This document shows positions 15,740 through 43,942 of a stretch of 43,942 bases of DNA, piece after piece (the stretch's first letter is position 1; every line of letters starts with the position of its first letter). The notes under the pieces were generated by a model that was not told the DNA's origin, made no database searches, and saw only the letters and a program-made list of their open reading frames with translations. The stretch is from Verrucomicrobiota bacterium (GTDB lineage Bacteria; Verrucomicrobiota; Verrucomicrobiae; Limisphaerales; UBA11358): contig JACZKP010000051.1 in NCBI GenBank assembly GCA_014860005.1, positions 1-43,942 of the forward strand, given 5' to 3'. The translations under genes and the position numbers were made by a program.

Positions 15740-15761
15740 GATTCAAGCGGGTTGGACGGCT

Positions 15762-17222: not shown

Positions 17223-17246
17223 TTAACCCGTCAACCAAGCCATAAC

Positions 17247-17645
17247 GTGAATCCCATCATCGCACGCTGCGGCTATCGCTGCGACCTTTGTCCGGCGTAC
17301 CGGGAAAATATCCACGGCCCGGAAGACCAACAGCGCACCAGCGACGGCTGGTTCAAATACTACGGCTTTCGCATTCCGCCGGAACAGATTTGCTGCGACG
17401 GCTGTCTGGACGAACGACCGGAGGCCCGCCGCATTGACTCATCGTGCCCAATCCGTCCATGTGTCATCGCGCGCGGCTTGAGTACGTGCGCGCAATGCCC
17501 CGATTGCGGGTGCGAACGATTCGCGTCGCGAACCGTGACGCGGGAATGGGTGGAGCAACGAATCGGAGCGCCCGTTCCGCCGGAAGATTACCGGTGGTTT
17601 GTCCTGCCATACGAGCGCCGCGATTGCCTGACTCAAACCAAATGA
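17247..17645 (+). CDS. Cys-rich DUF3795-like protein
   Basis: A 132-residue protein with about a dozen cysteines grouped in pairs (CGYRCDLCPAY, CCDGC, CPIRPC, CAQCPDCGCERF). This is typical of DUF3795 proteins, which probably bind zinc or an iron-sulfur cluster; the function is unknown. The start is a GTG at 17247. It lies 24 bases after the S41 peptidase gene and 16 bases before the DUF3788-like gene. Confidence 0.75.
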   Translation: MNPIIARCGYRCDLCPAYRENIHGPEDQQRTSDGWFKYYGFRIPPEQICCDGCLDERPEARRIDSSCPIRPCVIARGLSTCAQCPDCGCERFASRTVTREWVEQRIGAPVPPEDYRWFVLPYERRDCLTQTK

Positions 17646-27919: not shown

Positions 27920-28073
27920 TGGCTTCACGTTCGAGCGGAATAATACTGGCGGGGTTATTGGAATCAACGCCTTTTACCATCCGGAAACAAGGCCAATTTC
28001 GGCGAGTGGTTGTCAGGAGCAAGCCACGGAGTTCCGTGACAACCAGACCCGGTGGATGGCTTTAATTCTCCAC

Positions 28074-28817
28074 TCACATCGGGTCACGGTTCACATCCTC
28101 GAAGTAAATGCAACTGGCCGGCGTCTTGCCCATGGCCACGAACCATTGCGGACAATACGGTGCGGTCCAGATCACGTCGCCCGTCCGCACCGGATGCCAG
28201 TCCGCCCCCAGCCGGCATATCCCCTGTCCCTTCAGCAGCATGGCCCCACGTTCCATGAGTTGCGCCGAGACGAACGCGTGCGCGGCCCCGGGTGGAAACG
28301 TGAGGATATTCACTGCCAGATCGTACGCGGGTTCATTGGGCAGCAACGCCTGCAACCGGACGGCTTCGTCGCCATGAAACGGGCGGCCTTTTACGTCGCG
28401 TTCGTGGGCAATGATGGATTCCAGTTTCGCGGCGCCGGCCAACGACTCATAGCGTTTCTGAAAAATCAACAATCGCAGGTTGTCGCCCCCGCTTTTCACC
28501 TGGATGTCCGTGTCCGGCGGAAGAAAGACATAGCTGCCGGCTTCGAGCCGGTGCCGACGTTCGCCCAGCACAATACTCCCCGCGCCTTCAATCACGTAAA
28601 GGAAGTATTCATTCGGCCCGGTGTTGCCTTCGCCAACGCCGTTTTGGTCGAGTGTGACCAGCAATTGCGTGAAGCGCGCGCCCAACGCGGGCGAGATGTT
28701 CACGACGCACACAGCGCTCTTCCAACCCGGCAGATTGCTCGCCACGAAACTGTCGGGCGTCAGCAAGGCATAACGGCCCTGGACCACGGTGCGGGTGCAG
28801 CCAAACAAATCATTCAT
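28074..28817 (-). CDS. allE: (S)-ureidoglycine aminohydrolase (bicupin)
   Basis: A 247-residue bicupin. In purine (allantoin) breakdown this enzyme releases ammonia from (S)-ureidoglycine in a Mn2+-dependent reaction. Family features seen are GRYALLTPDSFV near the N-terminus, GARFTQLLVTLDQNG, GPNEYFLYVIEGAG in the first cupin, and FPPGAAHAFVSAQLMERGAM in the second with the His/Glu ligands, ending YFEDVNRDP. This closely follows the pattern of E. coli AllE as I recall it. The ATG at 28817 is preferred over a GTG at 28856. No other allantoin genes are in the window, so its role here is not certain. Confidence 0.85.
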   Translation of the reverse strand: MNDLFGCTRTVVQGRYALLTPDSFVASNLPGWKSAVCVVNISPALGARFTQLLVTLDQNGVGEGNTGPNEYFLYVIEGAGSIVLGERRHRLEAGSYVFLPPDTDIQVKSGGDNLRLLIFQKRYESLAGAAKLESIIAHERDVKGRPFHGDEAVRLQALLPNEPAYDLAVNILTFPPGAAHAFVSAQLMERGAMLLKGQGICRLGADWHPVRTGDVIWTAPYCPQWFVAMGKTPASCIYFEDVNRDPM

Positions 28818-29059
28818 CGGTTTACTATGGATAAAGCAAGGCTCTTGAAGCACCAACGCTCCCGCGGCGGCGTCTCACAACCGGGCGGCGGGCAAAAATG
28901 GTGGCCCTGCATTCGTAACATCTCTCGGCGCAGAATGGGGCGCACGGAGCGCCCTGTCAACGCGCAGCCCTGTCGGCGCAGGCAGCGCCGCAACCGTGGT
29001 GGGCCGCACCGAAATGAGGGGCTCTCGGTGCCGGCTCGCGGATTCAGAACCCCGAACGA
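28818..29059. other. GC-rich non-coding stretch, repeat-like
   Basis: About 240 bases between two minus-strand genes with no protein-like frame. The stretch 28935-29045 is very GC-rich with several GCGC and GGCGC blocks, and looks like interspersed repeat DNA, but I found no second copy in the window. Confidence 0.4.
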
Positions 29060-29479
29060 CTATTGACTCCTCGTTTGAAACACCAGCAAGTACGGCACTG
29101 ACGAATGGCCCTCCGTGTCGCGGAAGCTCTGGAATTTCCCGAGGTTGAGCCAGAGCACGTAGGTCCTGCCCGGCTGAAGTTTCACCGGCATGACGCACGT
29201 CCGCTTGTCAGGTTGATAGTGAATCTTGCCGCCGGACTCGGGGAAATTCTCTTTCGAAACCTGGCAGACCGACCAATTGCCGTCCAGCATGTCCTTGCTG
29301 AAGGTGAACTTGAGTTCCTTCAACGCCGGGTCCACGTCCGTCGCTCCGGCCGGTGGCACGGTCTTCACCACCGACGGCGGCATGGCTTTCACCGAATACT
29401 CCTTTGCAGCCTGGGCCAATGCGGCGACTGCCAGCATCGTAGCCGCCATCGCGATTCCACTGATCAGTTTACTTTTCAT
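29060..29479 (-). CDS. small exported protein with one Ig-like (Big_5) domain
   Basis: A 139-residue protein with a signal peptide (LISGIAMAATMLAVAALAQA). One Big_5/SbsA-like Ig domain covers the rest: SVVKTVPPAGATDVDPALKE, then FTFSKDM, then KRTCVMPVKLQPGRTYVLWL and PYLLVFQTR. The same domain occurs at the N-terminus of the protein encoded just upstream and at the C-terminus of the kinase before that. A single base separates its ATG from the preceding stop codon (TAA A ATG), so it is translationally coupled. It is the last gene of the three-gene operon. The function is unknown; binding to an envelope partner is inferred. Confidence 0.8.
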   Translation of the reverse strand: MKSKLISGIAMAATMLAVAALAQAAKEYSVKAMPPSVVKTVPPAGATDVDPALKELKFTFSKDMLDGNWSVCQVSKENFPESGGKIHYQPDKRTCVMPVKLQPGRTYVLWLNLGKFQSFRDTEGHSSVPYLLVFQTRSQ

Positions 29480-29480
29480 T

Positions 29481-31460
29481 TTAGTTTTCTCTTTCCGGTT
29501 GGATTTGTGGCGCACTTGCGGGCGCCGATTCGGGACGGGGGGAAGGCGATTCATCCGTAATGGCTTTGACCTGTGCTTCCATCTTTTTGCCCAGCGCCAG
29601 CATCGGCTGCAAGGCGGTGCGCGCTGCTTCCAGGTTGCCGTTCTCCAGCGCGTCAATCAATGGTCCGAGCGTCTTCAGTGACTCCGCAGTGCCCGCCTCG
29701 AACGGCGTGCCCTTCATGGCGTCGCGAAATTCCTGAATTCGTGGCGCGAGAGTTTGCAAAGAAGCCAGCGCGTTCCGGGCGTCTTCACTCTGAAGCGCTG
29801 CCACCGCCGCCGACCACGCTTCGCGAATGCCTTCCATGACTGGCGTGGCGGCGCGGAGTCGGGCGGCCAGGTCGGGTGAAGAACCCGGCGCCGGTGTAGC
29901 GGCGGATTTACCCCTCAAGCTCTCAAGAAATTTCTGGTCACTTTCGTCCAGACTCCCGGCCAGTTTCTCCGGCTCAGCCTGTCCGTTCCACCAACGAATG
30001 ATTTCGGGTTTGTAGGGCGGCTCGCCTTTCTGGTCGTTCCACCACTTACCCCACGCGGTCCAGTCCTTGCCAAAGTTTTGTCGGGTGATTCGCACGAGCG
30101 AAATCTGCGCCCACCAGCGTGTGTTGACATTGCCGTGATAGACCAAATGGATCAAATCCGGCACGGATTCCTTATCACCGATGATGCCCAACGCGCGGAT
30201 GGCCATCCAACGATCGCGATTGTTCCGGTCCACGCGCTCGGAGGCGATCTCGCGCAAGCGGGGCAGCGCCTTCGCGGAACGCATTGCCGCCAGCGTGTTG
30301 ATGGCCTGATAATACTCCGTCGAGCGCGGGCCGTTGAGCGCGTCAATCAACTTTCTTTCGAGAGCGGCCCGCTCTTCGTCAGACCAGCCGGCGAACGTGC
30401 GCGCATCGAAGAAACTGCGAAACTGCCGGTCCGTCCATGCGAGCACGGCGCGCTGGTCGTCGTTGAGCAGGGACATGAATTCTGCTGAGGCGGCGGCGCT
30501 CGCGTCCGCTTCGCCCGATGCTTTGGCGGAAGGCGGGGCTGGTTTTGCGGTCTTGAGCATGTCCAGCGCCGCCTGGGCATTGTGCCGTACGAGCGGGCTT
30601 TCGTCCTCCAACGCTTCCTTGAGAATCGGCTCCGCCCGCGCATCGCCCAACAACCCGAGCGCGTAGGCCGCGCAACGGCGCGCGTAACCGCTTGAATCCT
30701 CTTTCGTCATCTTGGCGAGCGCGTTGAAGCTCTCGCGCACTTGGTTTCCTCCCAGCGCCAACGCGGCCATCCCGCGCGTGAGGTCTTCCGAGTGCATCAG
30801 CAGTTTTTGGAGCGACGCAGCAGCGGGTGTAATGTTCTCGAACTCGCCCTTCCACAGAATGTAAATCGCGGAGCGACGTTCGGTGTCCTTGACCGCGTCC
30901 AGATGCGGAATCAGCGCCGCGACGACCTGCGCTTGGTCCAGCGGACGCAAGGATTTCAACGCTGCTTCCACCCGCGGATCGCCTTCCGCGCATTGAGAGA
31001 TCGTCGCAACGACTTCGGCAATGATGGCGGCTGGCGCTCGCGTTGCCTGCACACCGTCGCTGGCCGTGGTGAACGTAAGCAGGTACGGCACGGCGGGGCG
31101 ACCGGCAGTGTCTGTGAAGTTTTTGAACTTATCGCTGTTGAGCCACGTCGCGTAAAACTTGCCGGGTTGGAGTTTCACCTTCAGGACACAAGTGCGTCCG
31201 TCCGCAGCATACTTCGGTTGCCCCACCATCTCAGGAAAGTTCTCCTCGCCCCAGGTGGACCAGGACCAACTCCCGTCCTGCATGGGCTTGCTGAATTGGA
31301 CCACGATTTCAGATGTGCGCGGATCAACGTTGGCGGTGCCGGCGACCGGTTCGGTTTTCACCACAACGGGTGGTGCGGATTCAAGGGAAACCTCGGCGGC
31401 GCGACCTGGAATGGCACCGCAAAGCATCGCAGTCAGACATAGAATGATTTTTGTTTTCAT
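29481..31460 (-). CDS. exported Big_5 + HEAT-repeat protein
   Basis: A 659-residue protein. A signal peptide (KIILCLTAMLCGAIPGRAA) is followed by a Big_5 Ig-like domain (about 25-135, VVVKTEPVAGTANVDPRTSE, and later RTCVLKVKLQPGKFYATWL). A long stretch of HEAT repeats follows (about 150-330 and 380-470, for example RRCAAYALGLLGDARAEPIL and SESPLVRHNAQAALDML-type units, with RWMAIRALGIIGDKESV). An Ala/Ser/Pro-rich linker separates the two blocks. The C-terminal 170 residues are helical and end in a Pro/Ala tail. It starts 3 bases after the kinase gene. A periplasmic scaffold role is inferred. Confidence 0.8.
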   Translation of the reverse strand: MKTKIILCLTAMLCGAIPGRAAEVSLESAPPVVVKTEPVAGTANVDPRTSEIVVQFSKPMQDGSWSWSTWGEENFPEMVGQPKYAADGRTCVLKVKLQPGKFYATWLNSDKFKNFTDTAGRPAVPYLLTFTTASDGVQATRAPAAIIAEVVATISQCAEGDPRVEAALKSLRPLDQAQVVAALIPHLDAVKDTERRSAIYILWKGEFENITPAAASLQKLLMHSEDLTRGMAALALGGNQVRESFNALAKMTKEDSSGYARRCAAYALGLLGDARAEPILKEALEDESPLVRHNAQAALDMLKTAKPAPPSAKASGEADASAAASAEFMSLLNDDQRAVLAWTDRQFRSFFDARTFAGWSDEERAALERKLIDALNGPRSTEYYQAINTLAAMRSAKALPRLREIASERVDRNNRDRWMAIRALGIIGDKESVPDLIHLVYHGNVNTRWWAQISLVRITRQNFGKDWTAWGKWWNDQKGEPPYKPEIIRWWNGQAEPEKLAGSLDESDQKFLESLRGKSAATPAPGSSPDLAARLRAATPVMEGIREAWSAAVAALQSEDARNALASLQTLAPRIQEFRDAMKGTPFEAGTAESLKTLGPLIDALENGNLEAARTALQPMLALGKKMEAQVKAITDESPSPRPESAPASAPQIQPEREN

Positions 31461-31463
31461 AAT

Positions 31464-33776
31464 TTATTTCCTCGTTTCAAAGATGAGCAGATAAGGCACG
31501 GCGGATTGTCCCTCGCGGTCTTTGAAATCGTGGTGATGCTCGGAGTTAAGCCAGATGGCGTAGAGTTTGCCCGGCTTTAGTTTTACGGGCAGCACGCACG
31601 TCCGTCCGTCCGCGAGATAGCGCGCGGATCCGGTCGTTTCCGGAAAGTTTTCCTCGCCCCAGATCGTCCACGACCAACTGCCGTCGCGCATCGGCTTGCT
31701 GAACGTCACTTGGAGTACAGTGATTGCGGGATCAACGTTTGCCGTGCCGGACTCGGGAACCGTATTGATTACGACGGGCGGCACTTTAGGTTCAACCATT
31801 CCGCCGGCCAACGACAGAAGCTGAAAGTCCCGGCTCACATTTCTCTCGCCGAGTCCGCGCAGTCCGAGATTGGTGGTCAGCGTGTCGTAACCGGATGCCG
31901 AAAGGGCCACCTCTTTTGTCGCCGCATACCAACCCACGTAAAGCGTGAAGTGCCCGTTCTGATCGGCGCGCGCGTTGGGCAGATCGCCCTTTTCCAAAGC
32001 CCGCAGCGTGCGGGGCAACAACCTCAATTCCACATTGGGCACGGGTTGGCCGGTTTGCGCATCCACGACCGCACCCCGGATGAAGACGCTCGTCGGCACG
32101 AACAGTTGCCCCAGCACGAGCGCAACCGCCAGCGCGACGACTGTGCTCACCACCACGCTCGTTCTTCGCCCCCGCGTTGCCCACCAGCAGAAGCCGTAAA
32201 GCATCGCCACCGGCAACGGCGTCTGAAATAGATTCCATTTGATCCGGCCTTCCGAGATCTGCCACAGCGTCCAACCGCACGCGATGAGCAGCGCCGCCGT
32301 GCCTTCGCGCTTCCAGCCGACTACGAACCCGGCCAGCATCAGGCCAAGCGCGACGAAATTCAGTTGCACGCCTTCCGGTTGCGCGGCGATGGGCGGCAGT
32401 CCCTCTGCCAGAATGAAGAAAGCGTAGAAAGCCAGCAGCAGCGTGCCGAAAATGCGAGCTGTCCAGCGCGCGGCGGTGACCCAGCGCGGAGTAGTCGCCG
32501 GCGTTAGGAGGCTCTGATCCGCCTCGGGTTTGGCGGAAGGGGCGTTGTCTGCTCTGCGTCTGACTTCCCCTTTTTCGATGGCGTGAATCCGGAACTTCCC
32601 GCAACGCGCGCATCGGCCAATGGTGTACTTGGTTCCCACCGCCCATAGCCGAATGCCGTACTTGCCATAGTGTTCGGTAAATCCGCATTTAACGCACCGA
32701 ATCCGCCAACCGGGAGCGCGCGCTTCCCAGTCGGCATGCTCCGCCGCCGAAGTGGTGGCAATCGTTTCCACGTCCGTCTTCACCTCGCTCGCGTGCTGGT
32801 AGCGACGCGCCGGCTCTTTCTCCAACGCGTGCAACACCACTTCGTCCAACCGCACGTCCACTTGCACCTTTTTCGAGGGCGACTGGAATTTGCCGAGGGG
32901 CAGTTCGCCCGTGAGCATTTCGTAGAACACCACACCCAGCGAATAAATGTCCGCCCGATGATCCACCTTCTGCGGCGTCTCCACCTGCTCCGGCGCCATG
33001 TAATGCGGCGTGCCGAGCCGGTCCTTCGCACCAGTGAGATTGCCGCCCGCCGCATCGGCCCCAAGAATCTTCGCGATGCCGAAGTCCGCAATTTTCACGC
33101 GACCTTGCTTGTCGAGCAGGATGTTCTCCGGCTTGATATCGCGGTGAACAATGCCGCGTTCGTGGGCGAATTGGAGCGCCTCACAAATCTTGGGCACGAT
33201 GGAAAGCGCTTCCTCAGGTAACAATTTCCTGGTTTGCAACAACTGCCGCAGCGTCAGCCCGTCCACGTATTCCATCAACAGGTAATGCAGTGGGGCAGGC
33301 GTCTCGCCTGCCAACGTCCCGGCGACCGTCCCGGTTGCCGGATCAGCCTTGCCGGAAGCCGGGATCACTTCACCAAAATCATAAACCGCCACAATATCCG
33401 GGTGATTGAGCCGCGCCAACGCACGGGCTTCCTGCTGAAAGCGCGCGGCAAACTCCGTGTCCGAGATGCCGCTGTCCCGGCTGCGCGTGAGAATTTTCAG
33501 CGCCACGAAACGATCCAGTTTCGGCTGGCGGGCTTTGTAAACCACGCCCATGCCGCCGCGCCCAAGACATTCGAGGATTTCCAGTTGGGGAAAGTGCGGC
33601 GCGATTTCTTCAACCTGAGGCACGGGACGCGCCGGCTTGGCTGTGACGGTGCCATCCGGCCCGACTTCGCCGGTCTCAGCCAGCCCGGCCTGAAGCATGC
33701 ACTCCGGGCAGATCCCCTGAAGCGCCGTCGCCGGCACGGGCTTTCCGCAATGCGGACATTTGTGTTCTGTCGCCAT
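31464..33776 (-). CDS. transmembrane Ser/Thr protein kinase with zinc ribbon and outer Big_5 domain
   Basis: A 770-residue PknB-like kinase. An N-terminal zinc ribbon (CPHC, CPEC; residues 7-26) leads to a complete kinase domain (about 65-345): LGRGGMGVVYKA, Lys94, HRDIKPEN at 211-218, DFG at 231-233 and APE at 261-263. A second four-Cys ribbon (CVKCGF, CARCGK) precedes four or so membrane helices. After them come a carboxypeptidase-regulatory-like domain (about 575-665) and a C-terminal Big_5 domain. An odd Ala/Gly/Pro-rich insert interrupts the kinase N-lobe at about 137-163 (see the repeat at 33294). The ATG at 33776 has a GGGGA ribosome site. It is the first gene of the operon. Confidence 0.9.
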   Translation of the reverse strand: MATEHKCPHCGKPVPATALQGICPECMLQAGLAETGEVGPDGTVTAKPARPVPQVEEIAPHFPQLEILECLGRGGMGVVYKARQPKLDRFVALKILTRSRDSGISDTEFAARFQQEARALARLNHPDIVAVYDFGEVIPASGKADPATGTVAGTLAGETPAPLHYLLMEYVDGLTLRQLLQTRKLLPEEALSIVPKICEALQFAHERGIVHRDIKPENILLDKQGRVKIADFGIAKILGADAAGGNLTGAKDRLGTPHYMAPEQVETPQKVDHRADIYSLGVVFYEMLTGELPLGKFQSPSKKVQVDVRLDEVVLHALEKEPARRYQHASEVKTDVETIATTSAAEHADWEARAPGWRIRCVKCGFTEHYGKYGIRLWAVGTKYTIGRCARCGKFRIHAIEKGEVRRRADNAPSAKPEADQSLLTPATTPRWVTAARWTARIFGTLLLAFYAFFILAEGLPPIAAQPEGVQLNFVALGLMLAGFVVGWKREGTAALLIACGWTLWQISEGRIKWNLFQTPLPVAMLYGFCWWATRGRRTSVVVSTVVALAVALVLGQLFVPTSVFIRGAVVDAQTGQPVPNVELRLLPRTLRALEKGDLPNARADQNGHFTLYVGWYAATKEVALSASGYDTLTTNLGLRGLGERNVSRDFQLLSLAGGMVEPKVPPVVINTVPESGTANVDPAITVLQVTFSKPMRDGSWSWTIWGEENFPETTGSARYLADGRTCVLPVKLKPGKLYAIWLNSEHHHDFKDREGQSAVPYLLIFETRK
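33294..33312 (-). repeat. palindrome inside the kinase gene, part of an in-frame insert
   Basis: GGCAGGCG at 33294-33301 pairs with CGCCTGCC at 33305-33312 around a 3-base loop. It belongs to an in-frame segment of about 78 bases (33293-33370) that encodes an Ala/Gly/Thr/Pro-rich stretch in the kinase N-lobe, where related kinases have a short turn. Confidence 0.55.
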
Positions 33777-34349
33777 ACTGGTCCCCACACCCTTTACAAA
33801 GGATTTCCCGGGGAGAGGTTACACGGGAGGAAGGCGGGAAACCATGAAAAGGGCGGTAGACGCAATCGCTGAAAGTAGAACGCCCTGACCCTGGCGGGAC
33901 CAGAGCCGGACAACGCGCCGTACGGCAAGCTGCTCAACGATGACCGTCCAATCGGATTCGAACCAACAAATCATTCACTTCCGCGCGCGTTTCATCACTT
34001 GGCGATTCCGGCAACTGACTCGCTTCATGCGCGGCCTGCAGTTCTCCGCGCAGCCGCTGGTATTCTGATTCGTGGAAGGCGATATCTGCATCTTCCAATT
34101 TGGATTTTTCCGGGCCGGCGAGTTTTCGTGCAACCAGGTCAGGGATGTAGGGCAGCTTGAACTGCTCATTTAGCGTCACGAGATTCGCTTCGATTTCACC
34201 AGCCCGCATCAGGTGAATGCCGGTGAGTAGCACGCGATAGACATAAAGCAACGGCTTTACCCGGCGCGGCGATTCTTTCAGAAACAACTTCCACTGCGTC
34301 TCCGCAAAGCCGAAGTAATGATGCGAGTGGTGCTTCGTGATGACGCCCG

Positions 34350-34400
34350 TCTGGCCACCCTCTCCGCCTCGACCGGGGAGAGGGGCTGGGGGTGAGGTGT
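34350..34400 (-). repeat. repeat insert in the nucleotidyltransferase gene (CCCTCTCC palindrome)
   Basis: CCCTCTCC at 34358-34365 pairs with GGAGAGGG at 34377-34384. The surrounding segment adds a Pro/Gly/Arg-rich stretch (TSPPAPLPGRGGEGG) between two conserved blocks of the protein. The frame is kept. The sequence style is that of a widespread intergenic repeat. Confidence 0.6.
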
Positions 34401-34564
34401 CGAATCGTCTGGTGCGGCAGATTTCCTTCAACTCCTCATGCTCCGGCGTGGTGTGGACGATGAGGGGCGAGAAAAGCTGTTCCAGCACGTAACCGTTCTT
34501 CTTGAGCAGCAGACCGAAGAACTTCCGCACGTCATGGCTCACAATGTCCATCTCGAGAGCACGG

Positions 34565-34625
34565 CCCTCTGCGCATTGTCCCTCGCCCGCGGGATCGGGA
34601 GAGGGTGACGAAGCCGGGTGAGGGT
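34565..34625 (-). repeat. repeat insert in the nucleotidyltransferase gene (CCCTCGCCCG palindrome)
   Basis: CCCTCGCCCG at 34580-34589 pairs with CGGGAGAGGG at 34596-34605 with one mismatch. It encodes a Pro/Ser-rich segment (PHPASSPSPDPAGEG) where family members have a short loop. The frame is kept. Confidence 0.55.
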
Positions 34626-34773
34626 TGTCGGGAGAAATCATTTCTTTGCGCGGAGGATCAGGCGGCACAATCATTGACTGTTCCACCGTTTCATCGCGGA
34701 CGTCCAACCCGACGACCTTTTCCAGCGGCAACACATGCGCGCCGCGCAGGTCGAAGTCCGAGTCCGGTGACGG

Positions 34774-34839
34774 ACCACGATGCGCGAAGCGCACATCGTG
34801 ACTTAGGGAATCCATCTCGTGGCGGGCTTGGGAAGCCTC
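34774..34839 (-). repeat. frame-breaking repeat insert in the nucleotidyltransferase gene
   Basis: Contains the near-perfect palindrome CACGATGCGCG (34776-34786) with CGCACATCGTG (34790-34800). It separates the two halves of the active-site motif (AHLYG and SPDSDFD), and the flanking coding frames differ by two bases. Exact ends cannot be fixed without an uninterrupted homologue. Confidence 0.6.
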
Positions 34840-34945
34840 AACCCGTAAAGGTGCGCGCCACTTATGGTGGCGAACAACAGCGGGTACGGTTGCGCCGCGA
34901 CGATGCGGTGAAGGCGTGGGTCAATGGTCATGACGAATTCTGCCA

Positions 34946-36670
34946 CTAACCCTGAACATCCAAGTTATTTGCAACGACGGTTTCAAGTTCACCAAACAAG
35001 TCGGTCGTCCGCACCACCCCCTCTTCGTCCCACCATTTCTCCCGCACTTCCGCGAGCACGGTTTTGCGATTCGCGGCGGGGCGTGAACTTCGGACCAAAT
35101 AAACAATGGCCATGCGGGCGTTGTTATCTTTAAACGCGCGCGGCAGCGTGATGATCAGGCGAAGCTCGCACGCGTGAGCCAGTGCCAGACGCAAAGCGGG
35201 CATCCCGCGATTGTCGCGGGTCAACAGACCCTCCGGCACGAGCAGGCAAATGCGGCCTCCATCCGGTTTCGCCAGTTCAATGGCCCGGCGGATGAAGCAA
35301 TGGTGATCCATCAAGCCGCCTTCCGTGTGACCGAACCGCTCCTCCCATTGCCGCGCGATTTCCTTTCGGTTCGTTCCCGAATACTCGTCATTGCCGGGCG
35401 GATTGCCGATGACCAGGTCGTAACGTCCCGGACGCAAGTGCGGTTCGGCTCTTGGGTCTTCGTTGATCTCGCTGGTCTTCGGGGCGCGTTCATACAACGC
35501 GTTGTGCAGAAACACCTGGAGACTTTTGGCGTGCTGCGGATACAAGAACGTCAGCAACTCGCGGGCGCACGAGACGCAGAACGCGTCGTCATCAATTCCC
35601 ACCAATCGTCGAGTCAGGAATTCCTGCGCCCGTCGGTCGCCGTCCGCCTGTGCAACGTGGTTCACGCTCTCGGCGAGAAAGACACCCGTCCCGCACGTCA
35701 TGTCAATCACCCGCTCATGGGCGCGAGGGCGCGCAAGCCTCACCATTTGTTGAGCGATTTCCGTCGGGGTGAAGTAGCGCGCCACATTCCGATAGCGCAC
35801 GACGCCCTTGACGCGATAAGCTCGCGACTGCGACTCGCCGGTGAAATAGCGATACGCACCGCGACCGCCGGGTTGCAGCAGGAACGTTCGGTAGCCCCGC
35901 GCCACCGCCGCGCCTGTGAATTCGTGTGACTCGATCTTGCGCCGATACCACGCAACCGTTTTCAACACTCGCCGGGCGGCCTGCGTTCCCAGCCCAAGTT
36001 GCCGGCACGCCGCCCGGAGGCCCGCTTCACCATCATGCCGGGCATGGTCAATGATGCGGTTGAACAGGATGATTTTCTGATCGTCTTTGTTCCGCAATGC
36101 AGCCACCTGGTCAATCGAACCGAAAAGGTCAGTGAAGAACTGATTAGCGAGGTCCGCGACGAGCACTTGCTGTTGCGGGGAAACGGCAGCCGCCGGTTGC
36201 AGTTGGCCCGCCTCGGCCAGCAACTCGTTCCATTCGAGAAAAGCTGGGAGCCCCTTCTGCCGGATCGGCTCGTATTCAACGTTGAGTCCGCGAACGACGG
36301 CGCGGCACATCTCCGCCCGGCTGCCCGCAGCGGTGATGAGGAACGGCACCGTCCGCTCCTGCATGGGGCAATCACGCTGGCGCGGCTTGAAATTTCGGCT
36401 GTAATTCTTGGCCTGCTTGAAGCCCTGGTCGAACTGCCGCGCCATCGGTTCGCCTTCAATGGTCACCAGCGGCACGTCACCGTGATGAACGAGAAAGTCC
36501 AGACGCAGATTTCCTTTCCCGAATGGATTCTCGATTGGGAATTGCGACCGACAGGCGGAAAGCGGGACGCCAAGGTATTCGAGCAGCGGCCAGACAACTT
36601 TCAGACAATATTCCGAGTCGTTGTAGCAAGGTAAGCTGAGGAGTTCCTTGATCCGGCCATTCGTTCTCAT
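34946..36670 (-). CDS. N6-adenine methylase-like protein with N-terminal nuclease-like domain
   Basis: A 574-residue protein. Residues 1-130 resemble the HSDR_N-type PD-(D/E)xK fold (LRLDFLV with D58, then LVTIEGEP with E72). The usual ExK lysine is Glu (E74), so cleavage activity is doubtful. A helical region (about 150-290) leads to an N6-MTase domain: FTPTEIAQQMV at 300, SAM motif VIDMTCGTGVFL at 321-332, and catalytic motif NPPG at 423-426 where NPP(Y/F) is expected. It lies 18 bases after the specificity subunit gene and 14 before the nucleotidyltransferase remnant. It could be a BcgA-like RM fusion, or an inactive partner of the other methylase. Confidence 0.75.
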   Translation of the reverse strand: MRTNGRIKELLSLPCYNDSEYCLKVVWPLLEYLGVPLSACRSQFPIENPFGKGNLRLDFLVHHGDVPLVTIEGEPMARQFDQGFKQAKNYSRNFKPRQRDCPMQERTVPFLITAAGSRAEMCRAVVRGLNVEYEPIRQKGLPAFLEWNELLAEAGQLQPAAAVSPQQQVLVADLANQFFTDLFGSIDQVAALRNKDDQKIILFNRIIDHARHDGEAGLRAACRQLGLGTQAARRVLKTVAWYRRKIESHEFTGAAVARGYRTFLLQPGGRGAYRYFTGESQSRAYRVKGVVRYRNVARYFTPTEIAQQMVRLARPRAHERVIDMTCGTGVFLAESVNHVAQADGDRRAQEFLTRRLVGIDDDAFCVSCARELLTFLYPQHAKSLQVFLHNALYERAPKTSEINEDPRAEPHLRPGRYDLVIGNPPGNDEYSGTNRKEIARQWEERFGHTEGGLMDHHCFIRRAIELAKPDGGRICLLVPEGLLTRDNRGMPALRLALAHACELRLIITLPRAFKDNNARMAIVYLVRSSRPAANRKTVLAEVREKWWDEEGVVRTTDLFGELETVVANNLDVQG

Positions 36671-36688
36671 ACGGTGGCTCGCCGGTCT

Positions 36689-37567
36689 TCAGCCGGGGAA
36701 GGGCCCGATTTTTTTCTGCTCGCCTTCAAGGACAGCCTCAAGCTCGGCAATTAAATGTCTCAATCGCTCCTGCGCTTCCGCCATCGCCCGTTTGTAACTC
36801 GCGTTCTGGTCAGCGAGTTTGTTGATAGCTTCGCCGTACTGCCCAGATGCAATGCCGCTTTCATCCAGCAATCGCTCTTTGATTGCCATCGCCCGGTCGT
36901 GTTGCTTCGCCATTGCCAGGTACTGGCGATGAACATCGAGTTGCAGATTCACAGGCAATTCTGGGATTTCAATTTTCTTGATTTGGCCGAAGCTGATGGT
37001 CATCGCGTCCACGCCGTGCATTACTCTCTGCACCTGCAATGCCCCGAACCGCGATTTCAAAAAACAGCAAACGTAGAATGGATCAATCCCGTCAACTCGG
37101 ATTCGGTCAATGTGCTGACTGATGTTAACCTTCCCGTAGTCTCGTGTTAATGCGACGCACCGCCCGATCAACGTCTCCGTTCCACGAAAAGCGTTGTTCG
37201 TAAAAAGAATATCCAGCTCGGCGACCCGACTCCGTTCCGAATCATTGTGGCTTCCCTCGGCGATCCGATCTGGCTTTATTGAGAAATCAATTCCGGTGTC
37301 CCGGATGTTAATGACCTGCAAGTAGCGCACGGATCCGCGCGGGCTGAGTTTGCGAGCGCCGACTTGTCCATAGGTGATCCCCTTCGAGCCATCCGGCAAT
37401 TCCTGCGGGATAAAGTTGCCCAGCGGAACGCTTCCGAGTTTCTTGAGTTTCTTTTCGTTTTTGCGGAAACGCTCCTCAAAGTAACCGGCCGTCCAGCGAT
37501 CATGGCGCAGCAACTCAGGCCGGGCAATCCTGACCTCCAGCGTGGGGGCATCGGGAAGTTCGCGCAT
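36689..37567 (-). CDS. HsdS-like DNA specificity subunit (single recognition domain)
   Basis: A 292-residue protein, about two thirds of a usual HsdS. The N-terminal part resembles a target recognition domain (KLGSVPLGNFIPQ, GITYGQVGARKLS, ISQHIDRIRVDGIDPFYVC, then FGQIKKIEIPELP). The C-terminal about 90 residues are a long helix rich in Glu, Gln and Ala that should form the coiled-coil arm contacting methylase subunits. One recognition domain only implies a half-site or a dimeric assembly, as in some type IIB/IIG systems. A single base separates its ATG from the stop of the upstream methylase gene, so the two are coupled. Confidence 0.8.
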   Translation of the reverse strand: MRELPDAPTLEVRIARPELLRHDRWTAGYFEERFRKNEKKLKKLGSVPLGNFIPQELPDGSKGITYGQVGARKLSPRGSVRYLQVINIRDTGIDFSIKPDRIAEGSHNDSERSRVAELDILFTNNAFRGTETLIGRCVALTRDYGKVNISQHIDRIRVDGIDPFYVCCFLKSRFGALQVQRVMHGVDAMTISFGQIKKIEIPELPVNLQLDVHRQYLAMAKQHDRAMAIKERLLDESGIASGQYGEAINKLADQNASYKRAMAEAQERLRHLIAELEAVLEGEQKKIGPFPG

Positions 37568-37568
37568 G

Positions 37569-38807
37569 TTATTGGGGGTTGGGCCAAAACTCCGCCCGTT
37601 GTCGCCGCGCGCTTGCCAGCACGGAGTTCAGGTAATTCTCCAGGCTCCAGTTCGGTGAGTCCAGCAGCGGAGCAGTGAGAAAAATCGGCGTGTCGTCTTC
37701 TGGTAACTGGTCGAGCGTCGCCGGAGAGAACCAACCATCAGGCCGGTCGTGGACCAAGCGTCGGGCAAAGAGGATCGTGGTCCGCGCATTCGCGCCCACA
37801 TCTGTGAAAACCTTTTGTGGAAGGCCGACGGTGGCCAGCAGGTCCATTCGCCCAAGCAACCAGCGGCGGAACGGTCCCAGCCGGTCACTCGCCACAATGC
37901 TCTCCGGCACGATCACGGCAATCAGCCCGCCGGGTTTGGCCAGCCGCACGAACCGCTCGGTGAACATGACTTCGATGGCCGTGCTGGCGAGCCGGCGGAT
38001 CGCATCACGCACATCCGGCTGTGAGGGGTCCAGTGGACGATTTGGTGGCCAGTGGGCGATGAGTTTGGCGGCCCGCACGTAATCGCTGGCGGTGGGCCGG
38101 CGCTTGTCAAAGAGTGCGCCCGCCGCGAAAAGTTCCGTGGGTGCGCCCGCAGATGCCGTTTCGACTTCTTCATCCGGTTCTGGTTCCGTCTCCAGCCGCC
38201 AGCAAGAATACTGGCTAAGGGTTCGCACCAGGCGGTCCAACTCCACGCGTTCCTGACGCGACAATGGCTGGCGCGGTGACGGTGATTCTTCCTTCAGGCT
38301 AGCCGCTTCAAAGAAGTCCTGCTCTTCGTGGCGTGGTGATTCAGATTCGTCAAGCAAGCGCAGCAAATTCCGCAAGCCCGTTCCACTGAATGGGGGATTA
38401 CCTGCCGCGATGCTGAAAGCTCCTTCTTCGATGCCGCTTGCCGGCTCGTCGAGAAGACCATTGACGAGATGAATATGCGCGCTACGCAACAAGGGGTCGC
38501 GCTGCCAGCCGGCAGCCAGGGTTGCGTCTATGTCTGCGCCGAAAAGATTTTTCGCGGGCAGTCCGCCGCGTTCGTGAGCGACGCGCAGAAAAACGCCCTC
38601 GCCACACGCGGGATCAATTAGCCGCGTATTGACGGAGAATCGTTTGCCGTGGATGACTTCCAGCAAATCCCACATGAACCCGGCGACTTCGGGCGAAGTG
38701 AAGAACTGCCCCAATCCACGTCTTCGTTCCAAATCGTCAACCGGCGCTTCCACGACGGCGATAGACTGTCGAGGCGCGGGTTTTGCTTTGTCCGTCGCTA
38801 GATTCAT
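37569..38807 (-). CDS. N6-adenine DNA methylase (HsdM-like)
   Basis: A 412-residue methylase. A conserved GQFFTSPEVAGFM at about 33-45 precedes the SAM-binding motif LIDPACGEGVFL (63-74) and the catalytic NPPF at 137-140, all intact. An insertion of about 100 residues rich in Glu, Ser and Pro (about 155-260) follows the catalytic motif. The C-terminal part contains FVRLAKPGGLIAVIVPES, a standard family block. The ATG at 38807 is preferred because the N-terminal extension from 38921 is not protein-like. It should methylate adenine in the site read by the S subunit encoded next. Confidence 0.85.
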   Translation of the reverse strand: MNLATDKAKPAPRQSIAVVEAPVDDLERRRGLGQFFTSPEVAGFMWDLLEVIHGKRFSVNTRLIDPACGEGVFLRVAHERGGLPAKNLFGADIDATLAAGWQRDPLLRSAHIHLVNGLLDEPASGIEEGAFSIAAGNPPFSGTGLRNLLRLLDESESPRHEEQDFFEAASLKEESPSPRQPLSRQERVELDRLVRTLSQYSCWRLETEPEPDEEVETASAGAPTELFAAGALFDKRRPTASDYVRAAKLIAHWPPNRPLDPSQPDVRDAIRRLASTAIEVMFTERFVRLAKPGGLIAVIVPESIVASDRLGPFRRWLLGRMDLLATVGLPQKVFTDVGANARTTILFARRLVHDRPDGWFSPATLDQLPEDDTPIFLTAPLLDSPNWSLENYLNSVLASARRQRAEFWPNPQ

Positions 38808-38920
38808 TCTTCGGATGTGAGCAGGCTGGCGAAAGCCAGGCGGGTGGTCAACTGCCGAGTCCGAATGCGACACGGCTTGGACGGCTGTCACGCAAACGGA
38901 AGTGCTACAGGGAAGCGGCA

Positions 38921-39883
38921 TTAACCTACTTGGGAGCGCCGCGCTTTGATGAGGAAGCGATTTGCTACTTCATAATCGGGGCGTTCAGGCAGTTTGGTTT
39001 CGGCCAAGGCGCGCTCGAAGTCGCGGTGCAGTTCCTTGCGCCAAGCGTCCACTTCGGCCCACGGCAGTTCGCCGCGTTTGACGGCGAGCAGGCGGTCGCG
39101 GTGCGTCTCGACGCGCACGGGCACGCGGGCGGTGCGCAACGTGGCCGCGCCGGTAAGCAGCAGGCGCAGCAGGTGCATCGCGTGTTTCCATTTGATCTCC
39201 CCGGAATTGCGGATGTCCTGCTCGATCTTCTTGAACTGCGACATGGCGTAACCGTTGAAGGTTTGAAAAATCATTTGCGACAAGAACTGCTTGCGCAGGG
39301 CCAATAATTCTTCCCCGAGCGGCGTGACCTTCTCAACCATCGGTGAGTAGAGGCATTCGAGGATGTTCGGGTTGGCCTTGAGGGCCATGGTGAGGAATTT
39401 CTGCAATTCCCAGTAGCAGCTTTGCGTGGCGTTGTCCTCGAATTGTTCGGGTGCGCCGAAGAGCGACCATTGCAGATCGGCGGGCGCGAGGTAAATGCCG
39501 CGCCGGTCGGTGTCGGATTCGTCGTGGTCCAGCCCATACGCGCGCGAGCCGACGACGCAGCGGTAGATGATGACGGATTCGAGATCGAACGGAGCGCCGC
39601 TCTCCGAGCCGGCGCGGTTTTTCGTTCCTGATCGTGCCGGGTCGGAGACCGGCGCTCCAAGGCGATCCTTGAAATGCTTCAAGACTTCAAGTTGGGCAGA
39701 TTCGAATGAGGCCTCGAAGCCATCGGGGAAACGGACCAGGTATTTTTCTCCGCTCACCGCCGGCGTGCGCGTCACCACCCCCACTGCGCCACGCGGATGC
39801 ACGAGCGAGTCGCCCGGCCCACGCACTTCCATGAGTGCGACAACCTGCGTTCCAGCAAAGATGTTGTCCGGCTGGTGCGACAT
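38921..39883 (-). CDS. COG3541-like nucleotidyltransferase with N-terminal extension
   Basis: A 320-residue protein. Residues 1-72 form a small beta-rich domain (GDSLVHPRGAVGVVTRTP, KYLVRFPDGFEASF). The nucleotidyltransferase core then shows an intact motif, GSRAYGLDHDESDTDRRG, with Gly112-Ser113 and the acidic residues D124 and D126. The rest is helical (NILECLYSPMVE, then FNGYAMSQFKKIEQDIRNSG and KHAMHLLRLLLTG). Residues 76-98 are encoded by the in-frame palindromic repeat at 39591-39658 and fall between the two domains. The substrate is unknown: family members may transfer NMP to proteins or RNA. It lies 113 bases upstream of the first methylase gene on the same strand. Confidence 0.8.
   Translation of the reverse strand: MSHQPDNIFAGTQVVALMEVRGPGDSLVHPRGAVGVVTRTPAVSGEKYLVRFPDGFEASFESAQLEVLKHFKDRLGAPVSDPARSGTKNRAGSESGAPFDLESVIIYRCVVGSRAYGLDHDESDTDRRGIYLAPADLQWSLFGAPEQFEDNATQSCYWELQKFLTMALKANPNILECLYSPMVEKVTPLGEELLALRKQFLSQMIFQTFNGYAMSQFKKIEQDIRNSGEIKWKHAMHLLRLLLTGAATLRTARVPVRVETHRDRLLAVKRGELPWAEVDAWRKELHRDFERALAETKLPERPDYEVANRFLIKARRSQVG
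39591..39658 (-). repeat. palindromic repeat, copy 2, in frame inside the nucleotidyltransferase gene
   Basis: A 68-base palindrome. Read on the minus strand it starts GGAGCGCCGGTCTCCGACC and closes with GGCGCTCC. Copy 1 at 23365-23430 has the same ends and almost the same length. Here it encodes a peptide reading GAPVSDPARSGTKNRAGSE, between two folded domains, and the frame is kept. Confidence 0.75.
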
Positions 39884-39990
39884 TTCGACGGAATGGTAGT
39901 CGGAGGTCAGGAACGAAGGCGAGTCAGGACATCACGACCACCGCAAGCAGGGGCTTCCCGGTTCATCCAGTTCGCCGCGGGTTCTTCCGC

Positions 39991-40716
39991 TCACGTCCCG
40001 GCCAGTACGCGCATTAAATACCGCAATTCCTCCTCGACCTCAGCATCGCTCGCGACCGTTTCGGCAATGCTGTCGCGCAAAATCGCCCGGTAACGCTGCC
40101 GCAACCGATGCACCGCCACTTTCACCGCACCTTCGTTCAAGCCGAGTCTCAATCCCAGTTCCGCATACGGCGCCGAGTTACCCGGACCGGCGAGCGTGGT
40201 TCGCAGCGTGTCGAACAATTCGGCCTTGCCTTGCTGCCGATGCTCCGCTTCCAGCTTGCGATAGACCTGTTCCAGCAAGGTGATCGCCCAGCGCAGTTCA
40301 AAGGCTCGCTCCGGGGTGAGCGTTTCTGCCGGTTGCTGGCGGAGCCACGTCTCGGCGCTTTCCGTGTCGAGGGAAATGACTTTGCCCGCGCCGCGCCTCT
40401 GAGCCCGGGCCTTGTCCCATTCATCCGAGAGAAAATGATTCAGGCTCGCCAGCAGAAAGGATCGGAAACGGCCTTTGTCGGGACTGACTGTGGCCACCGC
40501 CTTGTGCTCCAGCAGATGCGCGAAGAATCCTTGCGTCAAATCTTCCGCGTCCTCGGGCGATCGTCCGCGCCGTCGAATGTAAGCATAGAGCGGATGCCAA
40601 TAAGTCTGGCACAACCTGGCCAGCGCATCCTGCGCACGCGTGGTGTCACTGCGTCCGGCCGTCAAGACGACCGACCATTGCGTCGTAACAAAAGCGGGCC
40701 AGGCTCGTGGCTCCAT
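39991..40716 (-). CDS. ECF-type sigma factor of planctomycete/verrucomicrobial style
   Basis: A 241-residue sigma-70 family factor. The start FVTTQWSVVLTAGRSDT is typical of a lineage-specific ECF group in PVC bacteria. Region 2 contains LCQTYWHPLYAYIRRRG and EDAEDLTQGFFAHLLEH; region 4 ends with LGLRLGLNEGAVKVAVHRLR. The ATG at 40716 is chosen because the conserved part begins there; the upstream extension to 40839 is not conserved in character. In PVC genomes such factors often accompany Ser/Thr kinases, but the only kinase here is about 6 kb away. Confidence 0.85.
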   Translation of the reverse strand: MEPRAWPAFVTTQWSVVLTAGRSDTTRAQDALARLCQTYWHPLYAYIRRRGRSPEDAEDLTQGFFAHLLEHKAVATVSPDKGRFRSFLLASLNHFLSDEWDKARAQRRGAGKVISLDTESAETWLRQQPAETLTPERAFELRWAITLLEQVYRKLEAEHRQQGKAELFDTLRTTLAGPGNSAPYAELGLRLGLNEGAVKVAVHRLRQRYRAILRDSIAETVASDAEVEEELRYLMRVLAGT

Positions 40717-40901
40717 CCCGGTGGAGGTTGTCTCTGGCAACTCAGCGTGTGCGGAAGTGCTCACGCAGGCGAGGCTAACGTCGAGCGCCAGAAAAGCAAG
40801 GGATGCCATCACTCCCTGGTGTGACGCTGCGAATGACATACCCTTGCTTCAGTCATTCTCGGACTTCCCGCTTCGCGCGGATGCCAATCACGGCATGGGC
40901 T

Positions 40902-41153
40902 AATGCCTTTCGGGAATTGGACGGTGCTGTCCCGGAAGGACATTGTGAAAATCGCCCAGCGTTTCAACGCTGGGTTGCGCGATCCAAATCCAGCGAGTCC
41001 CAGCGGGACGAAAGCGCATCGCGTTTCCGAGCCGGTTTGCTGCCGTCCCTTCGGGACTTGTCCCGCTTGGCGGCTCAACCCAGCGTTGAAACGCTGGGCT
41101 ATGGCCGGATGTCCCTCCGGGACAAACGTCGGTCTGAATTCCCGAAAGGCATT
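40902..41153. repeat. 252-bp palindromic element
   Basis: The first 78 bases read again in reverse complement at the other end: AATGCCTTTCGGGAATT at 40902-40918 mirrors 41137-41153. Inside each arm is a small hairpin, CCCAGCGTTTCAACGCTGGG at 40955-40974 and CCCAGCGTTGAAACGCTGGG at 41079-41098. It ends 14 bases from the metX stop and could act as its terminator. The style is that of an interspersed repeat of Verrucomicrobiota, an inference from memory. The gap 40717-40901 beside it holds no gene that I can support. Confidence 0.75.
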
Positions 41154-41167
41154 GGGGCTGGTCCGGC

Positions 41168-42322
41168 TCACCGCCCCAGCGCCTGTTGCAGGTGCGGCGT
41201 GAAGAGCTTCGGTTCGAGCAAGAATGAATCGTGACCTTTGTCTGAGTGGACGGTAATCCACATCACGGATATGTGCGTCCGCTTGAGCGCGTGAACCAGC
41301 TTTGATTGTTCCACCGGCGGAAACGAGAGATCCGCATCCATGCTGAACACAAGCCACTCCTGTCCGCGGCAGCGCTCGAACAAATCGTGCAGGTCCGCCG
41401 CTCCGCCCTCCGCCACCAGGTCAAACCATTGCCACGCGTCGAGAATGCGCAGGTAGGTGTTCGCGTCGAACCGCTTCACGAACTTGTCGCCCTGATGGAG
41501 CATGTAGGACTCGACCGGATGGTTCATTTCGTACCAACCGTGCGGCGGTTTCTGGCTGACCACCTCTTCGCGCGCGCGTTCGCGCAACATTTCCAGGGAG
41601 ACAAATGTCTTGTGCGCAATGCGCCGCGCCAGCGCGAGGCCCGTGTCGGGTTTCGGGCCGCGATAATAATCACCGCCTCTGAAATGCGGATCGCCCTCGA
41701 TGGCCGTCACCTGTTCGAAATTCATAATGCGTTGCTGCATCGTCGTTTCGACGCCCGTGCCGATCGGAACGACGATGCGCACGCGATCGGGATAACGCGT
41801 GGCCAGCAATTGACACAGGAAGCCGCCGGTGGACGCGCCCACAGCGGCGTGCAACTGCCGGACGCCCAATTCATCGAGCAGGCGCATCTGAGAATCCACG
41901 ATGTCGCTCATGCGCAGCACCGGAAACGCCGGCCCCCAGGGTTTGCGCGTCGTGGGATTGAGGGAGGCCGGCCCGGTGGATCCATAACAGCCGCCGAGGT
42001 AATTTACGCAGATCACGCAAAACAAACGCGTGTCCAGCGCCTTGCCCGGCCCGATGAACCCGTCCCACCAACCCTGATGCACTTCCTCCGTCCAACGTCC
42101 GTCCAGACCGGGTACCTCCGGATTCAAGCCGGCAGCGTGCTGGTTGCCCGTCATGGCGTGGAAGAGCAGGATGACGTTCGACTTGTCGGAATTCATCCGG
42201 CCGTAGATTTCGTAACCGAGCGTGAACCGTTCCAGTTCGCCGCCGACGCGCAGTCGCAGCGGTTGCTTGCGGCTCTTGAACTCGAAGAATTTGGTTTGAA
42301 CTTTGCGAATTGTCCGGCTCAT
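41168..42322 (-). CDS. metX: homoserine O-acetyltransferase-like enzyme
   Basis: A 384-residue alpha/beta-hydrolase. MetX acylates homoserine with acetyl-CoA (or succinyl-CoA) for methionine synthesis in the cytoplasm. Visible are the oxyanion region LLFHAMTGNQHA, the family's NYLGGCYGSTGP, and a nucleophile elbow VGASTGGFL in place of the common GGSMGG. The acid is in FSMDADLSFPP and the His in SDKGHDSFLL. An AGGGAAG ribosome site precedes the ATG at 42322. The metY gene is 45 bases upstream on the same strand, so both enzymes of the direct sulfhydrylation route are together. The altered elbow does not remove the Ser. Confidence 0.9.
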   Translation of the reverse strand: MSRTIRKVQTKFFEFKSRKQPLRLRVGGELERFTLGYEIYGRMNSDKSNVILLFHAMTGNQHAAGLNPEVPGLDGRWTEEVHQGWWDGFIGPGKALDTRLFCVICVNYLGGCYGSTGPASLNPTTRKPWGPAFPVLRMSDIVDSQMRLLDELGVRQLHAAVGASTGGFLCQLLATRYPDRVRIVVPIGTGVETTMQQRIMNFEQVTAIEGDPHFRGGDYYRGPKPDTGLALARRIAHKTFVSLEMLRERAREEVVSQKPPHGWYEMNHPVESYMLHQGDKFVKRFDANTYLRILDAWQWFDLVAEGGAADLHDLFERCRGQEWLVFSMDADLSFPPVEQSKLVHALKRTHISVMWITVHSDKGHDSFLLEPKLFTPHLQQALGR

Positions 42323-42367
42323 GGCTTCCCTGTTGAGCTTCCTGGTTATTCCCCTTCAGGCCTCAAC

Positions 42368-43654
42368 TCACGCGGAAGCCTTCAACGCCTGCGCGAGGTC
42401 CGCCAAAATGTCGTCAATATGCTCAAGGCCGATGCTCAATCGCACGAGGTCGGGCGTAATGCCGGCCGCGCGTTGTTGTTCCTCGTTCAATTGCGAGTGC
42501 GTCGTGGAGGCCGGATGAATGGCCAGCGACTTTGCATCGCCCACGTTCGCGAGATGCGAAAGCAGCTTGAGCGAATCAATGAACTTGCGTCCGGCTTCGA
42601 GACCGCCCTTGATGCCGAACACGACCATCGAACCGCCTTTGCCGCGCAGATACTTTTGATTGCGCGCAAACTCCGGATCGTCCGGCAGACCGGGGAATCG
42701 CACCCAGGTGACTTGCGGTTGTTGCTTGAGCCATTGCGCCACGGCAAGGCCGTTCTGGCAATGTCGTTCGACCCGCAGCGGCAACGTTTCGATGCCTTGA
42801 AGAAACATCCACGAATTGTCCGGTGCGATGCACGCGCCGAGATTGCGCAACGGCACAGTCCTCATGCGCAGGATGAACGCCAGCGGGCGCAGCGGCTCGG
42901 GCAGATCAATCCCCCAACGCAAGCCGTGATAACTGTTGTCCGGCGTCGTGTAGAGGGAATGTTTGCCCTCCGCCCAGTTGAATCGGCCACTGTCCACCAC
43001 CACCCCGCCGATGCCGGTGCCGTGGCCGCCAAGCCACTTGGTCAGCGAATGCACCACGATGTCCGCGCCGTGCGCAAGCGGCTGCGTGAGATACGGCGTG
43101 CTAAAGGTGGAATCCACAATGAGCGGAAGGCCGTTGGCGTGCGCGATCTTCGCGATGGCTTCCAGGTCGGCTATCTCCAGTGCCGGGTTCGACACGGTTT
43201 CGCAGAACAACGCGCGCGTTTTCGCATCAATGGCTTTGGCGAAGTTCTGCGGGTCGGTCGAGTCCACCAACTTCACGGTGATGCCGAGCGCGGGCAGGAT
43301 GTCATTGAACTGCGTGTAGGTGCCGCCGTAAAGATTGCGCGCGGAGACGATGTTGTCGCCCGCCTGCGCCACGTTGATGACGGAATAGAAAACGCCGCTG
43401 GTGCCGGAGGCGACGCCCAGTCCGCCCATTTCCGGCGCGCCTTCAAGCAACGCCACGCGTTTTTCCAGCACGTCGGTCGTGGGGTTCATCAGGCGTGTGT
43501 AGATGTTGCCCAGTTCGCGCAACGCAAAGAGGTTCGCGGCGTGTTCGGTATTCTTGAACACGTAGGAACTGGTGCGATAAATCGGCACCGCGCGGGACAA
43601 AGTGACCGGATCCGGCTGCGTGCCGCCGTGCAAACAAAGTGTTTCGAGTTTCAT
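42368..43654 (-). CDS. metY: O-acetylhomoserine sulfhydrylase (PLP enzyme)
   Basis: A 428-residue Cys/Met metabolism PLP enzyme that makes homocysteine from O-acetylhomoserine and sulfide. Family features include [13 protein letters not shown] at the start, [62 protein letters not shown] and the PLP lysine in [13 protein letters not shown]. The length fits MetY. The ATG at 43654 is chosen since conserved sequence begins with it; the frame continues upstream without protein character. It precedes metX in the same transcript. No SAM riboswitch was recognised upstream. Confidence 0.92.
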
Positions 43655-43942
43655 GCTGCGTGAGTGTATGCAAGCCGGCCTGCGGGCTGCAACTGCGCAG
43701 TGGAAGGTCTGGGGCGAACGGCGGGTTGCCGTCCGCGGAAAGGGATCGGAGGCTCCGAGCCAGGCGAAGCCTTGTCCCTTGACGTGCGAATCGGCTAAAG
43801 GATCGAGCCGGGCCGGGAAAGTAATGCCTCTGTCTTGCCCGGCGAGAACGCTCGTAGCGCAGGATTCCATCCTGCCGTATCGCGGATTTCCAATCAGTTG
43901 TGTTTGGCATGTGAGGTTGGAATGCGCGATGGGGCGCGGGGC
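43655..43942. other. upstream region of metY with a repeat fragment
   Basis: This stretch should contain the metY promoter (minus strand). I see no SAM-I/II riboswitch landmarks. A small palindrome, GCAGGATTCCATCCTGC at 43859-43875, is preceded by CTCGTAGC and followed by CGTATCGCGG. This has the form of an interspersed repeat. The rest shows nothing I can support. Confidence 0.4.

Follow-up and report, generated by a model that had tools for sequence, protein, structure and literature searches.

A candidate restriction-modification cassette set between two RlaP-type nucleotidyltransferase genes in a Verrucomicrobiota bacterium

Genes at the locus

The window analyzed here is a stretch of 43,942 nucleotides (contig JACZKP010000051.1, positions 1 to 43,942, assembly GCA_014860005.1) from a Verrucomicrobiota bacterium, and its open reading frame (ORF) list places five frames on the minus strand from 39883 to 33934 in the order NTase1, MT1, S, MTnuc, and NTase2, just as an initial annotation of this DNA had described. 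That annotation proposed that all five genes might form one defense or epigenetic system. Our comparisons instead make it likely that the inner three constitute a self-contained restriction-modification (RM) cassette inserted into a tandem of RlaP-type nucleotidyltransferase (NTase) genes, so that one NTase gene stands on either side of it.

The outer genes had been described as COG3541-type nucleotidyltransferases, and the Pfam family PF10127 (RlaP, gathering cut-off 23 bits) bears this out. NTase1 (38921..39883) scores 148 bits, with an intact frame and a complete GSRAYG...DSDTDRRG signature, and NTase2 (33934..34931) scores 130 bits on the frame running from 34815 to 33934. NTase2 is frame-broken: the frame opening at ATG 34931 stops after 42 codons, shortly past GAHLYG, and the rest of the signature (DSDFDLRG) sits in another frame that starts at 34815. 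Between GAHLYG and PSPDSD lies an insertion of ∼65 bases (34775..34839 on the minus strand) that contains a palindromic stretch, shifts the frame and brings the stop; it is absent from the three NTase2 relatives aligned, two of which place it as one block, whereas the alignment to the third splits it as 31+34 bases. Relative to the same three sequences NTase2 also has insertions at 34688-34563 and 34413-34347, with a placement that differs per alignment.

Within this pair, on the same strand, MT1 (37569..38807) encodes an N6_Mtase-type methylase with motif I DPACGEG and motif IV NPPF, predicted to be the active subunit; S (36689..37567) encodes a specificity subunit (PADLOC Specificity_I) with one target-recognition domain (TRD) and one helical hairpin; and MTnuc (34946..36670) encodes a methylase-fold domain with NPPG that is preceded, in the same chain, by a nuclease-like N-terminal region (D58, E72-x-E74). 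Both MT1 and MTnuc match the N6_Mtase model above its cut-off, and S matches specificity-subunit models only. The annotation's observation that no HsdR translocase is present holds for 29481-43870, where ten proteins were scanned and none was an HsdR. The spacing of the genes needs revision at both ends of the cassette. The 14-base gap reported before NTase2 applies to the ATG 34931 frame alone, and the longest MT1 frame reaches 38921, but the start is most likely at 38807 (412 amino acids [aa]) because most listed relatives are 412 to 414 aa long, which would put MT1 113 bases after NTase1 in place of a 1-base overlap.

Features of the cassette proteins

The aromatic residue of motif IV is uniformly retained in MT1, with phenylalanine in all 21 rows of alignment A2 (two of which are the window's own protein) and in 9/9 rows of alignment A5, distant relatives included; motif I and NPPF are present in the rows aligned. 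Some MT1 relatives of 706 to 728 aa (P0117, P0120, and P0125) combine the methylase with a DprA/Smf-like domain (PF02481), which precedes it in P0117. The S protein is 292 aa long, and its predicted structure (pLDDT 72.6) has a single TRD and a helical hairpin, with Foldseek matches to Esub1 (184 residues, the best) and to parts of the PacII and BsaXI S subunits. Here and below, Foldseek and VIA-align rows denote fold similarity only. The earlier description of two different methylases sharing one single-TRD S subunit is upheld.

The nuclease-like part of MTnuc reaches 17.0 bits against the Pfam HSDR_N model, below the 25.1-bit cut-off, but its D and E-x-E/K residues are conserved: D58 and E72 are invariant down to relatives at 25% identity, and residue 74 is E in 18 of 20 members and K in the other 2, giving mostly E-x-E and rarely E-x-K. 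(One distant locus, L005, is omitted from this residue table; its MTnuc frame ends early, at 326 aa.) The available text on the type IIB enzyme BsaXI gives its cleavage residues as E73, D90, E105, and K107 (PMC11997821), and compared with this E...D...E-x-K set the MTnuc family keeps the first E in 19/20 members and the D and second E in all. The closest Foldseek matches of the MTnuc model (pLDDT 80.3) are the BsaXI RM chain (the best), DrdV, and HsdM. The methylase-fold domain has diverged from that of MT1, each with a S-adenosylmethionine (SAM)-type motif I, and has NPPG or NPPA, with no aromatic residue at motif IV, in all aligned relatives. Because of this replacement we read MTnuc as probably the nuclease-bearing partner of one active methylase, and we infer that the cassette encodes a heteromeric RM enzyme composed of these two chains and S.

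Two other readings of these proteins deserve consideration. The cassette may specify a modification-only or regulatory (epigenetic) complex in which the nuclease region has no activity and DNA is methylated by MT1 and S alone; we regard this as a minority possibility that would accommodate both the E-x-E found in place of E-x-K in most members and the subthreshold nuclease match, but a dead domain need not keep D58 and E72 invariant across such distances, two members do have E-x-K, and the whole MTnuc chain aligns with the BsaXI RM chain. It is also conceivable, though unlikely, that each of the two methylase domains modifies one strand, and that they perhaps make N6-methyladenine (m6A) and N4-methylcytosine (m4C) as in the noncanonical type I system PacII (M1M2S). 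The presence of two diverged domains that each have a SAM-type motif I is consistent with this idea. The available description of PacII, however, gives it two active M subunits, an m6A enzyme with NPPF and an m4C enzyme (M2) that keeps NPPY, under an S subunit with two TRDs (PMC9613975), whereas the S subunit here has one TRD and the second methylase domain lacks the aromatic residue in every row.

The heteromeric enzyme that we favor shares features with several known systems and differs from each. As in BsaXI, an (RM)2S enzyme, a nuclease and a methylase-fold domain are joined in one chain beside a separate S subunit, with no translocase. BsaXI/BcgI-like enzymes, by contrast, combine two copies of one RM chain with an S that has two TRDs, while the window and its related loci (L001-L008) carry a second, different methylase gene. 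In the window the product of that gene has no nuclease, and MTnuc has E-x-E where BsaXI has E105-x-K107, along with a methylase domain that has no aromatic motif IV residue. PacII likewise pairs two different M subunits with one S (PMC9613975), but in the window the nuclease is fused to one M and no HsdR was found nearby. Membership in the MADS group was considered and rejected: the matches to MAD2-like methylase (71 and 57 of 720 bits) and MAD5-like S (47 of 400 bits) are weak and below the curated cut-offs, and no other MAD gene lies inside the cluster. We found no account of the MT1-S-MTnuc module or of an RlaP slot among the open PubMed Central papers listed.

Separate distributions of the cassette and the RlaP pair

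A pattern scan of 84,980 species, each represented by a single genome, gave 140 loci, 80 of which were kept (L001-L080). Among these 80 are three close copies of the cassette, all in Verrucomicrobiota and all in the order MT1-S-MTnuc, with MTnuc identities to the window of 90% (L001), 81% (L002), and 69% (L003). At the DNA level, homology to the solo cassette of L001 spans 34972..38863 (minus strand, 83% identity) and thus ends 58 and 41 bases before the NTase genes; the corresponding span for L002 is 34974-38861 (77%). More distant cassettes with the order S-MTnuc-MT1 occur in L004-L008 (Chloroflexota twice, Armatimonadetes, Fimbriimonadales, and Acidobacteriota), and in metagenomes 22 contig sizes are common to the MT1 and MTnuc rows. 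MTnuc (E ≤ 1e-30) was detected in 3 of 320 genomes of the order to which the L001 genome (G001) belongs, the same three as above, and in 1 of 387 genomes from an even draw of the phylum. Plasmids yielded two weak methylase matches to MTnuc, and 30 viral loci matched it at 23 to 31% identity only from query residue 247 on, in the methylase part. The initial annotation had named an hsdR gene just outside the operon in relatives as evidence that would count against its reading, and none occurs among the five flank ORFs scanned in L001-L003. We conclude from these comparisons that MT1-S-MTnuc is a conserved, self-contained three-gene module that appears separable from the NTases.

Neither NTase had a match in L001-L080, and the cassette stood without an NTase match in 8/8 related loci, where the flanks are limited by contigs. 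PF10127 was not detected in the genomes with close cassette copies (0/3; G001-G003), and when distant copies are included it was present in 1/8 genomes (G004), on a different contig from the cassette. The reciprocal search agreed: of the genomes of the order that carry NTase1, 0/35 had MTnuc (E ≤ 1e-30) in a whole-genome RM search that excludes seven genomes added for the second-family survey, and MT1, S, and MTnuc had no match at any of the 45 NTase1 loci read.

Those loci come from 48 different genomes with NTase1 (35/320 of the order, 7/387 of the phylum draw, and 10/150 of a second family); the other three genomes, G449, G481, and G636, have weak or fragmentary NTase1 matches. In 36/45 loci an NTase2 match (>40% identity) follows NTase1 on the same strand. 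With PF10127 undetected in the genomes with close cassette copies and the NTases being each other's usual neighbors, the idea that the NTases are part of the RM module is not supported, and the co-occurrence that the initial annotation suggested looking for was not seen at these loci. Nine loci have no NTase2 match; eight of these run to the contig end (L149, L151, L152, L153, L156, L157, L187, and L188), and L154 has none within 16 kb. L187 has an NTase1 88% identical to that of the window over the part present, followed by RNA ligase and Hen1 before the contig ends, and in L151 a Ppl-like protein follows NTase1.

The tandem is without an insert in 21 loci, with −10 to 81 bases to the NTase2 match, and holds cargo in the other 15 (634 to 5,380 bases), classed as RNA-repair enzymes in 3, defense-type genes in 4, and other genes in 8. 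L158 and L159 carry Hen1 together with PNKP_ligase; L160, an RNA ligase and an HD/AAA_33 protein; L155, a methylase and a BsaWI-type restriction enzyme; L147, an AAA_21-DUF4435 protein that scores as AriAB; L150, a SIR2-like protein; L146, an AAA_14/DUF4143 protein that scores as PDC-S01; L189 (691-5991), a pair of ADP-ribosylglycohydrolases along with an R2K ATP-grasp protein, a C39-type peptidase, and a cREC domain; L148, ankyrin repeats; L161, L175, L176, and L199, small HD-like proteins that are alike by eye, with L176 alone reaching Pfam HD among the three searched (L161, L175, and L176); L200, a TPR protein; and L179, one ORF. In L147 the NTase2 match (4671-6134) falls in two pieces ∼0.7 kb apart, and this copy therefore also seems interrupted. 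Because the gap in relatives is either empty or holds other genes, the NTases and the cassette look like a reusable slot and its passenger; the gap between the RlaP genes is, on this comparison, a repeatedly occupied slot, and the cassette of the window would be one more cargo besides those of the 45 loci.

Defense genes may be enriched in this slot, but the evidence is suggestive at best, because the ORFs were selected for their length and come from related loci. Among 24 cargo ORFs of at least 150 aa, PADLOC (1e-15) reported 21 families from 5 to 7 ORFs, of which 5 are named individually, in four loci, and the PDC-M72A and Ankyrin rows represent a possible two more. The control, which covers downstream flanks only, comprised 103 of the 104 ORFs within 6 kb downstream of NTase2 (one NTase2 piece was dropped) and had at least 2 positives, judged from 25 of 40 family rows. 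Fisher p values range from 0.0001 to 0.07 depending on the counts assumed.

There may be a second case of the cassette beside NTase1. When the best 120 of 7,505 NTase1 metagenome matches were compared, one NTase1 (P0247, 94% identical to that of the window) and one MT1 (P0015) both proved to lie on JGI contigs that are 5,868 bases long. Equal size is weak evidence, because an MTnuc row and an NTase1 row also share a size of 1,846 bases, too short for both genes, so that such a match can be chance. If P0015 and P0247 do share one contig, the cassette entered or was exchanged at this site more than once, given that P0015 is closer to P0011, the MT1 of solo locus L001 (86% identity), than to the MT1 of the window (75%). 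A single functional unit, in which the NTases serve the RM genes as a toxin, a regulator, or a repair arm, is improbable: the shared strand, the short gaps, this possible second contig, and the other defense-type genes in the slot speak for it, but the separate occurrence of the cassette and PF10127, the lack of a cassette match in the 36 tandems, the broken NTase2, and the mismatch between MT1 and NTase1 identities on the presumed contig all speak against it. The annotation's alternative of a chance type IIB-like RM neighbor fits better, except that the site is a cargo slot of the RlaP pair.

Beyond this block, a sigma-70-family factor gene (39991-40839) and a Ser/Thr kinase gene (31464-33788) flank the NTase1-RM-NTase2 genes. 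In L003, DNA matches to both (66 to 73% identity) lie side by side at 15023-17425, ∼3.3 kb after that locus's own cassette copy. The kinase and an adjacent HEAT-repeat protein (29481-31460) each have a Big_5 Ig-like match, that of the kinase just below the cut-off, and a 65-base repeat with 85% identity occurs once in each gene (positions 31231 and 31639). An inverted repeat of 30 bases (40951-40980/41073-41102, 93% complementary) has 92 bases between its arms.

Proposed function and significance

We propose that S would bind one recognition element and bring MT1 together with the methylase-fold domain of MTnuc. MT1 would methylate the target base, probably adenine, and the MTnuc domain, without the aromatic motif IV residue, would mainly complete the clamp. 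Foreign DNA that lacks the modification would be cleaved close to the site by the nuclease at the N terminus of MTnuc, with no translocation. RlaP was reportedly first described by Burroughs and Aravind in 2016. The predicted role of RlaP enzymes is to replace nucleotides missing from RNA ends so that ligation can follow (PMC7824862), and RlaP has been reported from several different RNA-repair systems (PMC6514570). An intact NTase would play this role at damaged ends of RNA and would not have to participate in restriction. Both match PF10127 as in the Hen1/Pnkp/RNA ligase operons, and relatives (L158, L159, L160, and L187) carry Hen1, PNKP_ligase, or RNA_ligase in the slot; the window differs in that its slot holds no ligase, kinase, or Hen1, none of which occurs among the window proteins scanned, and in that NTase2 is broken.

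Several points weigh against this interpretation. The E-x-E motif is unusual for a PD-(D/E)XK site, and the nuclease domain may be dead, although BamHI uses E-x-E and provides a precedent for such a site. The structural comparison of MTnuc barely covers residues before 166, and the nuclease fold was compared only within the whole chain, so that the assignment rests mainly on conserved residues. NPPG might still support catalysis in MTnuc. Confidence in the S model is low for residues 1 to 29 and for some loops, and the S frames of L006 and L007 are longer (393 and 465 aa, with uncertain starts). With regard to insertion, the cassette carries no recombinase gene, a repeat search of 28000-43942 found no repeats at its edges, and one sequence shows RM genes inside the NTase pair, the second case resting on equal contig size. 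Lastly, 8 of the 15 cargoes cannot be assigned clearly to either repair or defense.

A broader and rather speculative idea sees in the RlaP tandem a modular conflict locus, in which a fixed shell of RNA-end-repair NTases has effectors exchanged between its genes (RM, AriAB-like, SIR2, Ppl-like, type II RM), so that the cell would gain a defense weapon and RNA repair in the same transcript; the window would then be the RM version, with a three-chain enzyme that includes a nuclease-bearing pseudo-methylase. The proposed RM architecture, in which one active methylase works with an S of one TRD and with a nuclease-bearing methylase-fold partner whose motif IV is conserved as nonaromatic, would be new, differs from BsaXI and PacII in the residues given above, and is testable. 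The locus also illustrates that close same-strand spacing need not mean one system. The slot idea merits a proper survey, and the gap between tandem RlaP genes is a place to look for defense and RNA-repair genes in Verrucomicrobiota.
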